Assembly (NCBI GenBank): GCA_024331045.1
Contig: JANDJC010000006.1
Span: 1-64,000 of the forward strand
Direction of reading: 5' to 3'
Source: Nitrospira sp.
GTDB lineage: Bacteria; Nitrospirota; Nitrospiria; Nitrospirales; Nitrospiraceae
Length of the DNA: 64,000 bases
The position numbers and the translations under genes were made by a program. Below the pieces are notes generated by a model. It saw only the letters and a list, made by a program, of their open reading frames with translations, was not told the DNA's origin and searched no databases. Within the stretch, counting starts at the first letter, position 1. Every line of letters starts with the position of its first letter. This document shows positions 10,975 to 33,845 of this stretch, one piece after another.

Positions 10975-12711
10975 ATGGGAATTCTCTCGTCGCTGTTCAC
11001 CGGAGTGAGCGGTCTTAACGCCAACGGGATGGCGTTGTCCGTCATCGGGAACAACATCGCCAATCTCAGCACCGTGGGGTTTAAGGGAAGCAGGGCCACG
11101 TTCGCCGACTTGATCAGTTCGTCAATTACGGGAGGAGCGGGCGCAATCCAAACGGGGATCGGTGTGGCGTTGACCTCCGTGCAGGGAAATTTTTCGCAAG
11201 GGTCGCTCGCATCCTCGTCGAACGTCCTCGATCTGGCCATTGACGGCAATGGATTCTTTATCGTCGAAGACGTCAACGGCGGGCGGTTCTATTCACGAGC
11301 CGGGATTTTTCGGCTGGATCAAAATAACTACGTTGTCGATCCGGTTGGATTTCGGCTGCAAGGGTATCTGGCCGATGCCACCGGTACGATCACGGGGACG
11401 CTCGGCGATATTTCCTTGCCTTCAACCACCGCGCCACCCCGCGCCACTACGACGGCGTTCATTGCGGCCAACTTAAATTCTGCCAGCATACCGACGGGTG
11501 TCAGAGGCAATCTGGTGGGATCTGCTCCCTCCACCACGACGACGGCGGCCGGCAACAACAGTTTTAATATCAATCTAAACGGCGATGGTGTACGAACAAT
11601 CACGGTCGCCAACGGGCTTACGGGCGCGGCCCTGGCCACGGCTATCCAGAATGCTGTGCGGGCACTCACCCCCAATAATCCCTATCTTGCCGCCGCCTAT
11701 TCTGGCTTTACCGCAACGGTCGGTCCCACCGGAGTCTTTACCTTTACATCCGGTATGACGGGGATACCCAGTGGCTTCAGCGGAGCAACGGGGACCGTTA
11801 CGGTCACGGCCAACGGAGGCGATACCTTGGCGGCGAACTTGAACATGACGACAGGGACCCAAACAGCTGGAACGGATTTTCTGATGTCCAATCCCTCTGG
11901 CACCTCGGATTTCTCAACTTCCATGACGGTGTACGATTCGCTCGGGAACCCGCATCTGTTGACAACCTATTTCACGATGATCGGCGACAATACGTGGAAT
12001 TATAACGTGGTGGCCTCGATCAACGAGGTGGTCACGGCGAATTATCATACGAGCAACATCGACACCACGTTGGGCATCGTGAGGGTTGGCTCAGGAACGT
12101 TGACGTTCAACACAGATGGAACGCTCGACCGGGAGAGTCCGGTGATTCGCTACGATACGGGAACGGCGGCCGGAACTGCCGGGACATCGCCCGGTATGTT
12201 GCAAGTCGACTTTGTCGGGGCCACGCCGGATCAATTGATCACGCTAGATTTCGGTACCAGCGTGACTACCGATGGTGGGACTGGTTTGGATGGCACCACA
12301 CAATTCGGTTCACCCTCGGCGTTGGTGCAGTTGACGCAGGATGGATTTTCGGCCGGCACCTTGCAGGCGTTTTCGGTCGATACCAATGGCGTGATCAATG
12401 GGCGGTTTTCCAACGGTCAATTGCGCACCTTGGCGCAGGTGGCGCTGGCCCGTTTCCCTGATCCCATCGGATTGGTTCGAATGGGCAAGAACGTCTTTGC
12501 TGAGTCCGGCAGATCCGGTCAGCCCTTGATTGGGGTACCGGAAGGGGCTGGCCTTGGACGGGTGCTCTCCAATTCCCTTGAGCTGTCGAACGTCGATTTG
12601 GGAGAGAGTTTCATCGAGATGATCGCCGCGCAACGTGGGTTCCAAGCCAATTCACGGGTGATCACGACATCGGATGAAATTTTACAAGAGCTGGTCAATC
12701 TCAAACGCTAA
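10975..12711 (+). CDS. flgE: Flagellar hook protein FlgE
   Basis: FlgE polymerises into the hook. 'gaaaggagg' precedes the ATG at 10975. The 578-residue product has the rod/hook N-terminal motif ('LSVIGNNIANLSTVGFKGSR') and the C-terminal 'MIAAQRGFQANSRVITTSDEILQELVNLKR'. It is longer than the roughly 400-residue enterobacterial hook protein because of a Thr/Ser/Gly/Asn-rich surface insertion at about residues 165-300. A hairpin terminator candidate follows. Confidence 0.95.
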   Translation: MGILSSLFTGVSGLNANGMALSVIGNNIANLSTVGFKGSRATFADLISSSITGGAGAIQTGIGVALTSVQGNFSQGSLASSSNVLDLAIDGNGFFIVEDVNGGRFYSRAGIFRLDQNNYVVDPVGFRLQGYLADATGTITGTLGDISLPSTTAPPRATTTAFIAANLNSASIPTGVRGNLVGSAPSTTTTAAGNNSFNINLNGDGVRTITVANGLTGAALATAIQNAVRALTPNNPYLAAAYSGFTATVGPTGVFTFTSGMTGIPSGFSGATGTVTVTANGGDTLAANLNMTTGTQTAGTDFLMSNPSGTSDFSTSMTVYDSLGNPHLLTTYFTMIGDNTWNYNVVASINEVVTANYHTSNIDTTLGIVRVGSGTLTFNTDGTLDRESPVIRYDTGTAAGTAGTSPGMLQVDFVGATPDQLITLDFGTSVTTDGGTGLDGTTQFGSPSALVQLTQDGFSAGTLQAFSVDTNGVINGRFSNGQLRTLAQVALARFPDPIGLVRMGKNVFAESGRSGQPLIGVPEGAGLGRVLSNSLELSNVDLGESFIEMIAAQRGFQANSRVITTSDEILQELVNLKR

Positions 12712-30037: not shown

Positions 30038-32065
30038 ATGACGGGTGGCATCGGTTCTCTTTTTGAGATTGCCAAAAGCGCGTTGGCCACCTCGCAATTG
30101 GCATTAACCGTCACGGGCCATAACGTGGCGAACGTCAATACGCCGGGGTATTCGCGGCAGACGACTGTTTTATCCGAGCGTCCGCCGATCACTGGCCGTC
30201 CAGGAATGGTCGGCACCGGTGTGTATGTTGCCTCGATTCGCCGCTCCGTTGATCAATTTGTGGACAGGCAGGTGACGTTGTCGCGACAGAATATGGGGCG
30301 ATTGTCAGTAGCCAAGGACCTGTTGTCCCGCCTGGAGATGGTCTTTGGCGACGGTGTCACTCATGGGGTGGCGGGCGGGTTGACGGAATTTTTCCGCGCG
30401 GCCCAGGATGTCGCGACCAATCCAGGCGAGCTGGCGGCTCGGTCGGTGTGGCTGAGCAAAGCTCAACACCTGGCGTTCAGCTTCAATCAAGCCTCCTCCG
30501 ATTTCGCGGGGGAAAGACAGGCAATCAATTTCCACATTCGACAGACCATCAGTGAAATCAATAGCCTGTCGCGCAGAATCGCCGAGCTGAACGGCAAGAT
30601 TGTGACCGCCGAACTGACGGGCCAAAACGCCAACGACTTGCGAGATCAGCGGCAGCAGGCCATTAACGAATTGGCGGACAAGATCGATGTAACGACGCTG
30701 GAGCACTCTACTGGCGCCATGTCCGTATTTGTCGCGAGGGGCCAGGTGCTAGTGGACGGAGAGGTTGCGCGGGAACTGAGCGCCGTGGAGGAGCCAGGAG
30801 GCGATGGCGATGTGTCTGTTGGCTATTTGATGGGTGGCACCAGGGCGTTGAGTATCGGCGATCTGATTGCTAATGGGCGGTTGCGGAGCCTGCTCGAGGT
30901 GCGAGATTCGACCCTCGCCGATTTGCGGCGGGCGTTCGATCGCATTGCCGCGACAGTGGCGAACGCCGTGAACCAGATTCATCGCAACGGATACGGTCTC
31001 GACGGAACGACAGGGTTGGAGGTGTTCAGCACGCCGGCTGTTTCGGCTGAAGCCGCGCCGTCAAATCAAGGGACGGCCTTGGCTCAAGGGGGGGGACTCA
31101 CGGCGCCCAGTCTCTTGACCTTTCACGACTATGAAATTCGATTTTCTTCGGCGACGACTTATGCGCTCGTCGACCGAACAACTGGCTTGTCGGTTCGTGG
31201 AAATTATCTGGGCACAGCCATCACGGCTCCCTCCGTGGACGCTCCCCTTTCGATTGTGACGGGCAGCAATGATACGTTGACCGTGACGGTGGACGGGATC
31301 GCGTCGGGAACCATTACGCTTACCGGCGCCGCGTCACCTGGCCAGCCCTACACGTCTGGCGCCTCGCTCGCGTTGGAGATTCAGACTCGCATCAATGCCG
31401 ATACCACGTTGCAAGCAGCCGGAAAATCGGTCACGGTGGTGTTTGACACGACCACCAACCGGTTCGTGTTGACGTCGAACTCGACGGAGTCCTCTTCGTC
31501 AGTCGACGTGACCAGTGGCACAGCGCGGTCGTCGCTCGGTCTCCTTTCAGGGCTCAGCACTGCGGCATCGGGCTCCTACAGTGGTCCACAGACGTTCCAT
31601 TTTGATGGAATCAGCGTGGCGGTCACGGGTGTTCCCGCCTCCGGCGATGGACTGTTTGTCAATTCATACGATCACGCGGCGAGGGACATGGCTGTGGTGT
31701 TGACGGAGCCGGCGTTGGTTGCCGCCTCCTCCGTGCGTAACGGGGTGCCGGCCAACAATGCGAACATGCTGGCGTTGGCCGGACTGCAATCCCGCCCCTT
31801 TGAACATCTGGGACCAGCAACGCTAGAGGAAGCCTATCGGCGGCTTGCGGCGGATTTCGGAGTGATTGTCAACGCGACCACGCGGGAATTCGATGCCAAC
31901 GAAGTGCTTCGAGATCAAGTCAATGCGATGCGAGCTCAGGTGTCCGGCGTCTCATTGGACGAGGAGTTGGTTGCGTTGATCAAATTTCAGCGAGGGTTCG
32001 AGGCGGCGTCGCGCCTGATCCGAGTGTCCGATGAGATGGTTCAAACCATCCTGTCCCTCAAGTAA
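30038..32065 (+). CDS. flgK: Flagellar hook-associated protein 1 FlgK
   Basis: FlgK is the first hook-filament junction protein. The N-terminal 'LALTVTGHNVANVNTPGYSRQ' and the C-terminal 'VSLDEELVALIKFQRGFEAASRLIRVSDEMVQTILSLK' are diagnostic. At 675 residues it is longer than the enterobacterial protein (about 550). The extra part includes a 'Y-IRF-S-T-Y' module near 361-378 and a flagellin hook IN-type module ('GSNDTLTVTVDG') at about 405-505. Both recur in FlgL. Confidence 0.96.
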   Translation: MTGGIGSLFEIAKSALATSQLALTVTGHNVANVNTPGYSRQTTVLSERPPITGRPGMVGTGVYVASIRRSVDQFVDRQVTLSRQNMGRLSVAKDLLSRLEMVFGDGVTHGVAGGLTEFFRAAQDVATNPGELAARSVWLSKAQHLAFSFNQASSDFAGERQAINFHIRQTISEINSLSRRIAELNGKIVTAELTGQNANDLRDQRQQAINELADKIDVTTLEHSTGAMSVFVARGQVLVDGEVARELSAVEEPGGDGDVSVGYLMGGTRALSIGDLIANGRLRSLLEVRDSTLADLRRAFDRIAATVANAVNQIHRNGYGLDGTTGLEVFSTPAVSAEAAPSNQGTALAQGGGLTAPSLLTFHDYEIRFSSATTYALVDRTTGLSVRGNYLGTAITAPSVDAPLSIVTGSNDTLTVTVDGIASGTITLTGAASPGQPYTSGASLALEIQTRINADTTLQAAGKSVTVVFDTTTNRFVLTSNSTESSSSVDVTSGTARSSLGLLSGLSTAASGSYSGPQTFHFDGISVAVTGVPASGDGLFVNSYDHAARDMAVVLTEPALVAASSVRNGVPANNANMLALAGLQSRPFEHLGPATLEEAYRRLAADFGVIVNATTREFDANEVLRDQVNAMRAQVSGVSLDEELVALIKFQRGFEAASRLIRVSDEMVQTILSLK

Positions 32066-32078
32066 TTGAGAGGCACCT

Positions 32079-33845
32079 ATGCGCGTCACGGAAGCGCACG
32101 TCTTTGGCCTACTGGCCAGCAATTTGCAGCGTTCTCGCGCCCGCTTGTTGGAATTCCAACAACAGGTCTCTACCGGCAAGGCGGTACGCCGACCGTCCGA
32201 TGACCCCCATGCATTTCACCGCGTGTTGCACCATCGGGTATCTCTTGCCAGCCTCGATCAGCGGCTGCGGAACATCAGCGTTGCGAAAACGCGCCTGGAT
32301 CTCTCCGATCAGACGTTGCAAGGGGTGTCGGGGACCCTGTCACGTCTTCAGCAACTGGCTGTTCAGTTTCGCAGTGATACGCATGGATTAGCGGAACGAA
32401 TTATCGGTGCCGCAGAGGTTCGAGAGCTATTTGCGCAACTCCAACTGCTGGCCAATACCGATTTGAACGGTCACCCGATTTTCACCGGTACCAGCACCCA
32501 TGGGAGGGCGACCGGTTTGCCCATTACCGAGCCAATTTCTCTGACGAATGGCAGCAACGACACGTTGATCGTGGAGATTGATGGAGTCCTGTCCGGCACC
32601 ATTGATCTGACATCAGGAACCGAGTCGCTGACGGGCAGTGAGCTGGCGAGCCGCCTCCAAAGCCGGATTAACGCCGATGCCACGTTGACCGGTGCGGGCA
32701 AGCGCGTAACGGTTACGTTCGAGGGGGATCGGTTGGTGATAGCCTCCGATTCGTACGGCTTGGCTTCACGGGTGGCGGTTGTTGGCGGTTCGAGTCGGGC
32801 AACATTGGGATTTGACGGTGGCAGTATGACGACGGGCGAGGTGCCCTTTGCGTTGACGGCGACCGTCAGCCCAGGATCAGGCAACACAGGTGGGGCGGTG
32901 GCCGGTCAGGGGACGGTGGTAGATCCCAATGCCGTGACGCTGGATGATTATGTCATCCGCTTTACGAGTGCCTCTACCTATGAGGTGTTGAATGTCACCA
33001 CTCCCGTGACCGTTTCGGCTGGTGCGGCCAATACAGGGGGCGTGCGGGTGCTGGATAGTGGCATGACCGATCCGATGTCGCTGACGTTGCATCAGTACCG
33101 GATCCAATTTACGTCGCCTACTCAGTATTCCGTGCTTGATGTGACAGCCGGCACAACAGTTTCGTCCGGTAACGTGTTTGTCTCTGGTGCGCCAATTGAA
33201 TTCGACGGCCTACGGGTCGTGCTGGCCACCAGCGGAGGAGGAGGTCCTCAGACGGGAGATCAGTTTGATATCAGCCTGACGCCCCAAATGGTGGCGGCCA
33301 ACCAACCGTACTTGTCTGGCCACCCTATCATTGTCAATGGCATCAGGTTGACGATCACCGACGGAGCGGGTACGCCGCTAGCTGGAGATCTGTTTGCCAT
33401 CGTAACCGGTGTGCAATATCAAGGTGACGACGACCTCCAGCCAATTGAGGTGGGGGCCGGCCACACTGTTCAAACAAACCTGCCGGGAAGCCGCACATTT
33501 ACTGCAAACGGCACCGATATCTTTGCCTCTGTGAAACAGTTGGTGCGTGCCTTACGGGGCAATGATCGGATGGGCATTACTGGGGCGTTGGGGGGGCTGA
33601 ACCACGGGATTTCGCATATCGGCAGCCTGATGGGCGAAGTTGGGGCATTGGCCAATCGGCTGGCAGTCGGCGCGGATCAGTTAGAAAGCGTCAAGGGGTT
33701 CTACACGGAACTGCTGTCCCGGACGGAAGATATTGACTTGGCAAAGGCTATCTCAGATCTGGTGTTGCAGCAGTATGCGGTCGAGGCCGCTGGCCGCACG
33801 TTAACCCAGGTGTTCGATAATTCGCTTCTTCGATACTTGCGATAA
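32079..33845 (+). CDS. flgL: Flagellar hook-associated protein 3 FlgL, enlarged
   Basis: FlgL is the second junction protein, bridging FlgK and flagellin. The flagellin-like N-terminus ('LEFQQQVSTGKAVRRPSDDP') and C-terminus ('DIDLAKAISDLVLQQYAVEAAGRTLTQVFDNSLLRYL') are clear. At 588 residues it is almost twice the usual 300-plus. The surface part holds an IN-type module ('GSNDTLIVEIDG', about 156-250) and two 'Y-IRFTS-T-Y-V-D/N' units near 287 and 337. A shorter FlgL-like protein cannot be obtained by another start. Confidence 0.94.
   Translation: MRVTEAHVFGLLASNLQRSRARLLEFQQQVSTGKAVRRPSDDPHAFHRVLHHRVSLASLDQRLRNISVAKTRLDLSDQTLQGVSGTLSRLQQLAVQFRSDTHGLAERIIGAAEVRELFAQLQLLANTDLNGHPIFTGTSTHGRATGLPITEPISLTNGSNDTLIVEIDGVLSGTIDLTSGTESLTGSELASRLQSRINADATLTGAGKRVTVTFEGDRLVIASDSYGLASRVAVVGGSSRATLGFDGGSMTTGEVPFALTATVSPGSGNTGGAVAGQGTVVDPNAVTLDDYVIRFTSASTYEVLNVTTPVTVSAGAANTGGVRVLDSGMTDPMSLTLHQYRIQFTSPTQYSVLDVTAGTTVSSGNVFVSGAPIEFDGLRVVLATSGGGGPQTGDQFDISLTPQMVAANQPYLSGHPIIVNGIRLTITDGAGTPLAGDLFAIVTGVQYQGDDDLQPIEVGAGHTVQTNLPGSRTFTANGTDIFASVKQLVRALRGNDRMGITGALGGLNHGISHIGSLMGEVGALANRLAVGADQLESVKGFYTELLSRTEDIDLAKAISDLVLQQYAVEAAGRTLTQVFDNSLLRYLR

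Follow-up and report, generated by a model that had tools for sequence, protein, structure and literature searches.

The two proteins of the hook-filament junction, FlgK and FlgL, encoded in the 64,000-nucleotide stretch of Nitrospira DNA analysed here (the window), carry outer domains of two kinds, D2 beta-sandwiches and an IN-type module, stacked and nested in one another in FlgK and probably in FlgL. This state would have arisen once, each gene has since kept its own copies, and the domains probably form an outer shell over the junction. In this study, we ran profiles for the IN-type module and for the front (UN) and back (UC) halves of D2 on FlgK and FlgL of ~85 loci. These comparisons establish the anatomy of the two proteins, the homologies of their parts, the descent of the modules gene by gene and their co-variation with the size of the hook protein. 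They bring to light a clear domain-in-domain case at the hook-filament junction that can be read from the sequence, with the same hinge used in both partners (certain in FlgK, likely in FlgL).

The IN-type module of FlgK and FlgL

The genes flgK and flgL are adjacent in a flagellar cluster, and FlgE is also encoded within the window. Both products pass the equivalog cut-offs (FlgK, TIGR02492, 348 bits with a cut-off of 171; FlgL, TIGR02550, 181 bits with a cut-off of 127), and each contains one copy of the IN-type module:

30038..32065, + strand: flgK, hook-associated protein 1, 675 aa (TIGR02492 E 9e-104; PF22638 E 2e-64)
31238..31561, + strand: IN-type module of FlgK, residues 401-508, flanked by the D2 halves (alignment with the FlgL copy, z 23 and BLASTP E 4e-20; profile E 1e-40)
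32079..33845, + strand: flgL, hook-associated protein 3, 588 aa (TIGR02550 E 6e-53; PF00669)
32526..32831, + strand: IN-type module of FlgL, residues 150-251 (profile E 1e-41)

The two copies are 48% identical over ~105 residues and have the motifs GSNDTL, RINAD.TL and AGK.VTV in common. Their Smith-Waterman score is 210, against 40.6 +/- 7.3 for shuffled sequences (maximum 73 of 2000; z = 23), and BLASTP aligns FlgK with FlgL at 44% over 124 aa (E = 4e-20). The first-pass annotation had proposed a shared module of this kind, and its likeness in the two proteins lies far above that of shuffled sequence. The proposal that such surface modules explain the enlarged FlgL also held, as sister lineages without modules have an FlgL of ~296 aa and an FlgK of ~464 aa, against 588 and 675 in the window. 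The closest named relatives of the genome are Nitrospira MAGs and N. moscoviensis, the latter (L043) with an identical layout.

The same annotation had suggested a search with PF07196 (Flagellin_IN) and a test for the modules in flagellin and FliD, neither of which revealed them. PF07196 matched neither the window FlgK and FlgL nor any of seven diverse module sequences, and in the genome itself it matched only FliD. In the 2.85 Mb of this incomplete genome, no further copy of the IN-type module or of the D2 unit was found beyond FlgK and FlgL; the FliD matched by PF07196 lacks the module of FlgK and FlgL, and the sole flagellin found is a plain 281-residue frame. Profile-profile comparison (hhalign) did align the IN-type module with the Flagellin_IN segments of Nitrospira FliD over 72-73 columns, with a probability of 89-93 and a score of 37-41 (the best score of 150 column shuffles was 20.6), which suggests that the module is remotely related to Flagellin_IN. 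It may fold as strands, a helix and strands, as predicted for residues 153-236 of the FlgL model (pLDDT 45-80); a structure search for solved structures containing it returned nothing convincing.

We also considered a phage origin of the module and set it aside, the matches being weak (DUF3383, E 5e-6, below cut-off; phrog_19400; Xanthomonas phages, E 0.07). The DUF3383 phage protein family (PF11863) reached 26.2 bits against a cut-off of 34.9, and this with one of seven module members only. In plasmid-borne FlgL relatives, the core alone was covered.

Elsewhere in the Nitrospirota, the module has relatives in FliD (L100-L104, L107, L112-L114), FlgE (L106, L110, L116, L117), FlgK (L115, L118) and FlgL (L108, L109), and in a few large proteins that are not flagellar. 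PF07196 was not detected at the module positions of these axial proteins in the ten proteins scanned, which suggests that an IN-like module missed by the Pfam Flagellin_IN model is spread over FlgE, FlgK, FlgL and FliD within the phylum. The proteins that do not look flagellar include a lipoprotein-like frame of 787 residues (L105, 730-3090) and a frame of 2119 residues (L119, 136-6492).

Such a distribution would suit a history in which the FlgK and FlgL copies were acquired separately, from this wider pool (FliD, FlgE) or from other lineages, and were not copied from one gene to the other. The same can be said of relatives in the class that have the module in FlgL and none in FlgK (in L061-L066 the D2 of FlgK is plain), several of which also have it in FliD. 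We regard separate acquisition as possible and on balance unlikely, as the window copies share the three motifs given above and some FlgK/FlgL module pairs reach 67% identity.

The D2 domain and its interruptions

The halves of D2 were located as follows in the two proteins:

31103..31213, + strand: FlgK D2 front half (UN), residues 356-392, DYEIRFSSATTYALVDRTTG (own profile E 1.5e-19; joined to the back half in the FlgK of outgroups)
31577..31681, + strand: FlgK D2 back half (UC), residues 514-548, FDGISVAVTGVPASGDGLFV (own profile E 1e-13)
32922..33038, + strand: FlgL D2 front half 1 (UN1), residues 282-320 (profile E 6e-20)
33069..33176, + strand: FlgL D2 front half 2 (UN2), residues 331-366 (profile E 6e-20; PF21158 match at FlgL 316-398)
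33177..33296, + strand: FlgL D2 back half 1 (UC1), residues 367-406, abutting UN2 (profile E 1.5e-17; model pLDDT 77-89 over ~341-410)
33309..33425, + strand: FlgL D2 back half 2 (UC2), residues 411-449, just ahead of the FlgL-type hinge QYQGD (profile E 3e-16; the half nearest the single D2 of outgroup FlgL)

What had been described at first as a 'Y-IRF' unit is indeed common to both proteins (z 10-13), with a score of 86 between FlgK and FlgL (shuffles 31.7 +/- 5.2; z = 10.4) and of 90 between the two FlgL copies (shuffles 25.9 +/- 4.8; z = 13.3). However, this stretch covers no more than the front half of a unit of ~75 residues, and the back halves, which read 'FDG...GD.F', lie partly outside positions 31120-33200, where the shared modules had been placed. 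Searched against the PDB, the profile of the unit found Xanthomonas FlgL 5ZIZ (E 1.2e-7), Burkholderia FlgK 4UT1 (E 1.8e-4) and 7C7Z (E 2.1e-4); Legionella FlgL was among the proteins matched. PF21158 matches five of seven unit sequences (best E 2.5e-9), and its match to FlgL at 316-398 reaches 26.1 bits over a cut-off of 24.2; the window FlgK has no PF21158 match because its D2 is split. The best structural matches of the predicted FlgL model are 5ZJ0 and 5ZIZ (E 7e-12), and an outgroup FlgK aligns through the D2 region with Salmonella FlgK 9GO6. The PDB and PF21158 matches and the alignment with Salmonella FlgK identify the 'Y-IRF' unit together with its back half as D2 (PF21158), a beta-sandwich already described in both proteins. 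That D2 is common to FlgL and FlgK was reported with the structure of Xanthomonas FlgL (PMC6155364), so the unit is no novelty transferred between the two genes.

In the window FlgK, D2 lies between D1 segments, yet it is not continuous, being interrupted by 108 residues of IN-type module. Contrary to the order first proposed, in which the unit was followed by the module, the module sits inside the unit, between its halves. The same position, between UN and UC, is found in all module-bearing Nitrospiraceae FlgK examined, and all the module-bearing Nitrospira sampled show one and the same module architecture. The two halves are contiguous (~75 residues) in most outgroup FlgK and FlgL that have D2. 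Relatives within the order (L069-L074) have a plain D2 in both proteins, present as two in tandem in the FlgL of L071. The predicted model of FlgK was poor (pLDDT 47.4) and unusable.

For Nitrospira FlgL, profile mapping gave the order IN, UN1, UN2, UC1, UC2, with UN2 joined directly to UC1. The earlier reading was of IN followed by two units, but the real succession is IN, front, front, back, back; likewise, the arrangements in FlgK and FlgL do differ, although not by the order that had been claimed. It is likely that one D2 of FlgL is inserted in another (UN2-UC1 inside UN1-UC2), because UN2 meets UC1 in just the way seen in proteins with a single D2, because this stretch is confidently modelled (it is the best-modelled part of a model that is middling overall, pLDDT 57.5), and because FlgK certainly has an insertion at this hinge.

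The single D2 of outgroup FlgL clusters with a composite of UN1 and UC2, taken as the outer unit, and the inner unit (UN2+UC1) forms a lineage of its own. In a control, UC2 was nearer to outgroup FlgL than UC1 in 51/51 cases, and UN2 was nearer than UN1, also in 51/51; since it is UN2 and UC2, and not UN1 and UC2, that are nearest the outgroup D2, the grouping of the outer unit may come from UC2 alone. Pairing the halves by their similarity to outgroup halves was set aside as ambiguous and partly counter to a simple nested reading. The nearness of UN2 and UC2 to the outgroup FlgL D2 is what would be expected if the order had come about by separate half-domain duplications, or as an interleaved pair (UN1 with UC1, UN2 with UC2), with no nested domain. 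We hold this to be unlikely, given the gapless and well-modelled UN2-UC1 and the insertion at the same hinge in FlgK, which is met again in the FlgL of L057-L060, where the inner unit, which has a degenerate front half, accommodates two IN-type modules between UN and two UC. A D2 nested in a D2 is therefore the reading of FlgL that we retain as likely.

Loaded and bare loci and the junction

A tree of the FlgK and FlgL cores divides the family into two sister clades, one loaded (modules in both proteins) and one bare (modules in neither; L081-L087 belong here). One genus (g4) appears in both, with L058-L060 loaded and L083, L085 and L087 bare, which suggests that whole flagellar loci have been replaced or transferred between genera. 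A larger hook protein goes with loaded FlgK and FlgL: among 23 bare genomes the PF07559 stretch of FlgE measures 366-369 nt, as against 471-516 nt among 21 loaded genomes (lists read by hand from the profile search output), a co-variation that is essentially one split of the tree and is therefore a correlation with little independent replication. In two loaded, incomplete genomes (G316, G326), a short FlgE match only was found.

The FlgE of the window has 578 residues (10975-12711), and its PF07559 match is ~140 nt longer than in bare relatives. A second, short FlgE is present in three or four genera; the loaded genomes G060, G143 and G220 have both a short and a long hook protein gene or PF07559 match. 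Flagellin does not follow the split between loaded and bare, with 281 residues here, 281-319 in most Nitrospira sampled and >600 in some loaded relatives. One Nitrospira genome (G070, contig C20, 110483) has a flagellin frame of 652 aa, against ~281-319 in the congeners sampled, possibly a transferred gene.

Salmonella FlgK and FlgL expose their D2 domains at the surface of a junction that serves to buffer mechanical stress (PMC12221982), and it has been proposed that the layers formed by FlgK and FlgL touch through D2 (PMC6155364). By analogy, a mechanical role at the junction is a candidate function of the modules. In our model, the conserved D0/D1 core of FlgK and FlgL carries stacked surface domains, the D2 beta-sandwich and the IN-type module (~105 residues), with the module inserted in FlgK in the loop between the D2 halves, and placed in FlgL ahead of a D2 whose corresponding loop most likely accommodates another D2. 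After export, these modules would fold outside the tube and could build a lower outer ring of FlgK and, stacked on it, an upper one of FlgL, which would prolong the outer shell of the hook across the hook-filament junction and be reinforced by D2-to-D2 contacts between the layers, the IN-type modules being the outermost knobs.

Alternatively, the modules could be mainly decoys or adhesive decorations, selected by phages or surfaces, that contribute nothing to the mechanics of the junction. They are surface parts, and the FlgK module does weakly match phage proteins (the DUF3383 and phrog_19400 matches given above), but their architecture does not vary among the module-bearing Nitrospira sampled, it tracks the hook protein and not the filament, and the junction is a small share of the flagellar surface, all of which makes such a role quite unlikely. 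An outer shell over the junction is the function that we prefer. FlgK, FlgL and the hook can change their outer decoration jointly while the filament stays plain, and the proposed D2-to-D2 ring contact can therefore be tested by comparing loaded and bare relatives in one family. More tentatively, and with more doubt than conviction, the loop between the D2 halves might be a general landing site for repeated, nested uptake of domains by axial proteins, with hook, FlgK and FlgL acquiring and losing their outer shells jointly, as a matched set.

Descent by gene and known systems

In the module tree, read here as unrooted, for its groupings and not for which gene was copied from which, the copies separate by gene (FlgK-IN clade 97/91). 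The nearest relative of each FlgK copy is another FlgK copy (48/48), and across 48 genomes FlgK/FlgL pairs are 50.7% identical within a genome and 50.6% between genomes (permutation p = 0.38). At the DNA level, the best stretch between the two window copies is 74% over 54 bp, with no long identity, a similarity too faint for a recent copy. The proposal that surface modules are exchanged between the adjacent flgK and flgL by recombination or gene conversion is very improbable, for although the genes are neighbours, the search of the genome found for each IN-type module no relative but the other and one original copying event is possible, the copies cluster by gene and not by genome, same-genome pairs are no closer and long DNA identity is lacking. 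From these sequence comparisons, exchange as a continuing process is refuted; the sharing is real but ancient, and one old duplication or copying event, or two separate acquisitions from the axial-protein pool, fits better. In the account that we favour, the loaded state would have arisen once, before the module-bearing Nitrospiraceae genera diverged, each gene having kept its own copies since.

Flagellin has hypervariable D2/D3 domains nested in D1. As in those, the outer domains described here enter and leave a conserved D0/D1 core at one loop; the difference is that the same principle is repeated inside the D2 of the junction proteins, with two recurring domain types. Flagellin_IN (PF07196) occurs in host proteins of the same class, FliD and flagellins, and its remote homology with the IN-type module was detected by profile-profile comparison; however, no member of the module was matched in Pfam scans, and the module has ~105 residues and a signature of its own (GSNDTL...RINAD...LG). 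Burkholderia FlgK is similar in being a junction protein with a second domain of D2-like fold, D3 (PMC5691160). By sequence, its D2 match (367-427) is complete and the second, similar domain comes later, and the passages of its report consulted here mention no IN-type module. Finally, the D2 of FlgK and FlgL (PF21158; Xanthomonas FlgL 5ZIZ/5ZJ0, Burkholderia FlgK 4UT1, Salmonella FlgK 2D4Y/9GO6) is the same domain as the unit described here, with the distinction that in the window the D2 of FlgK is interrupted by another domain and that of FlgL probably holds a second D2.
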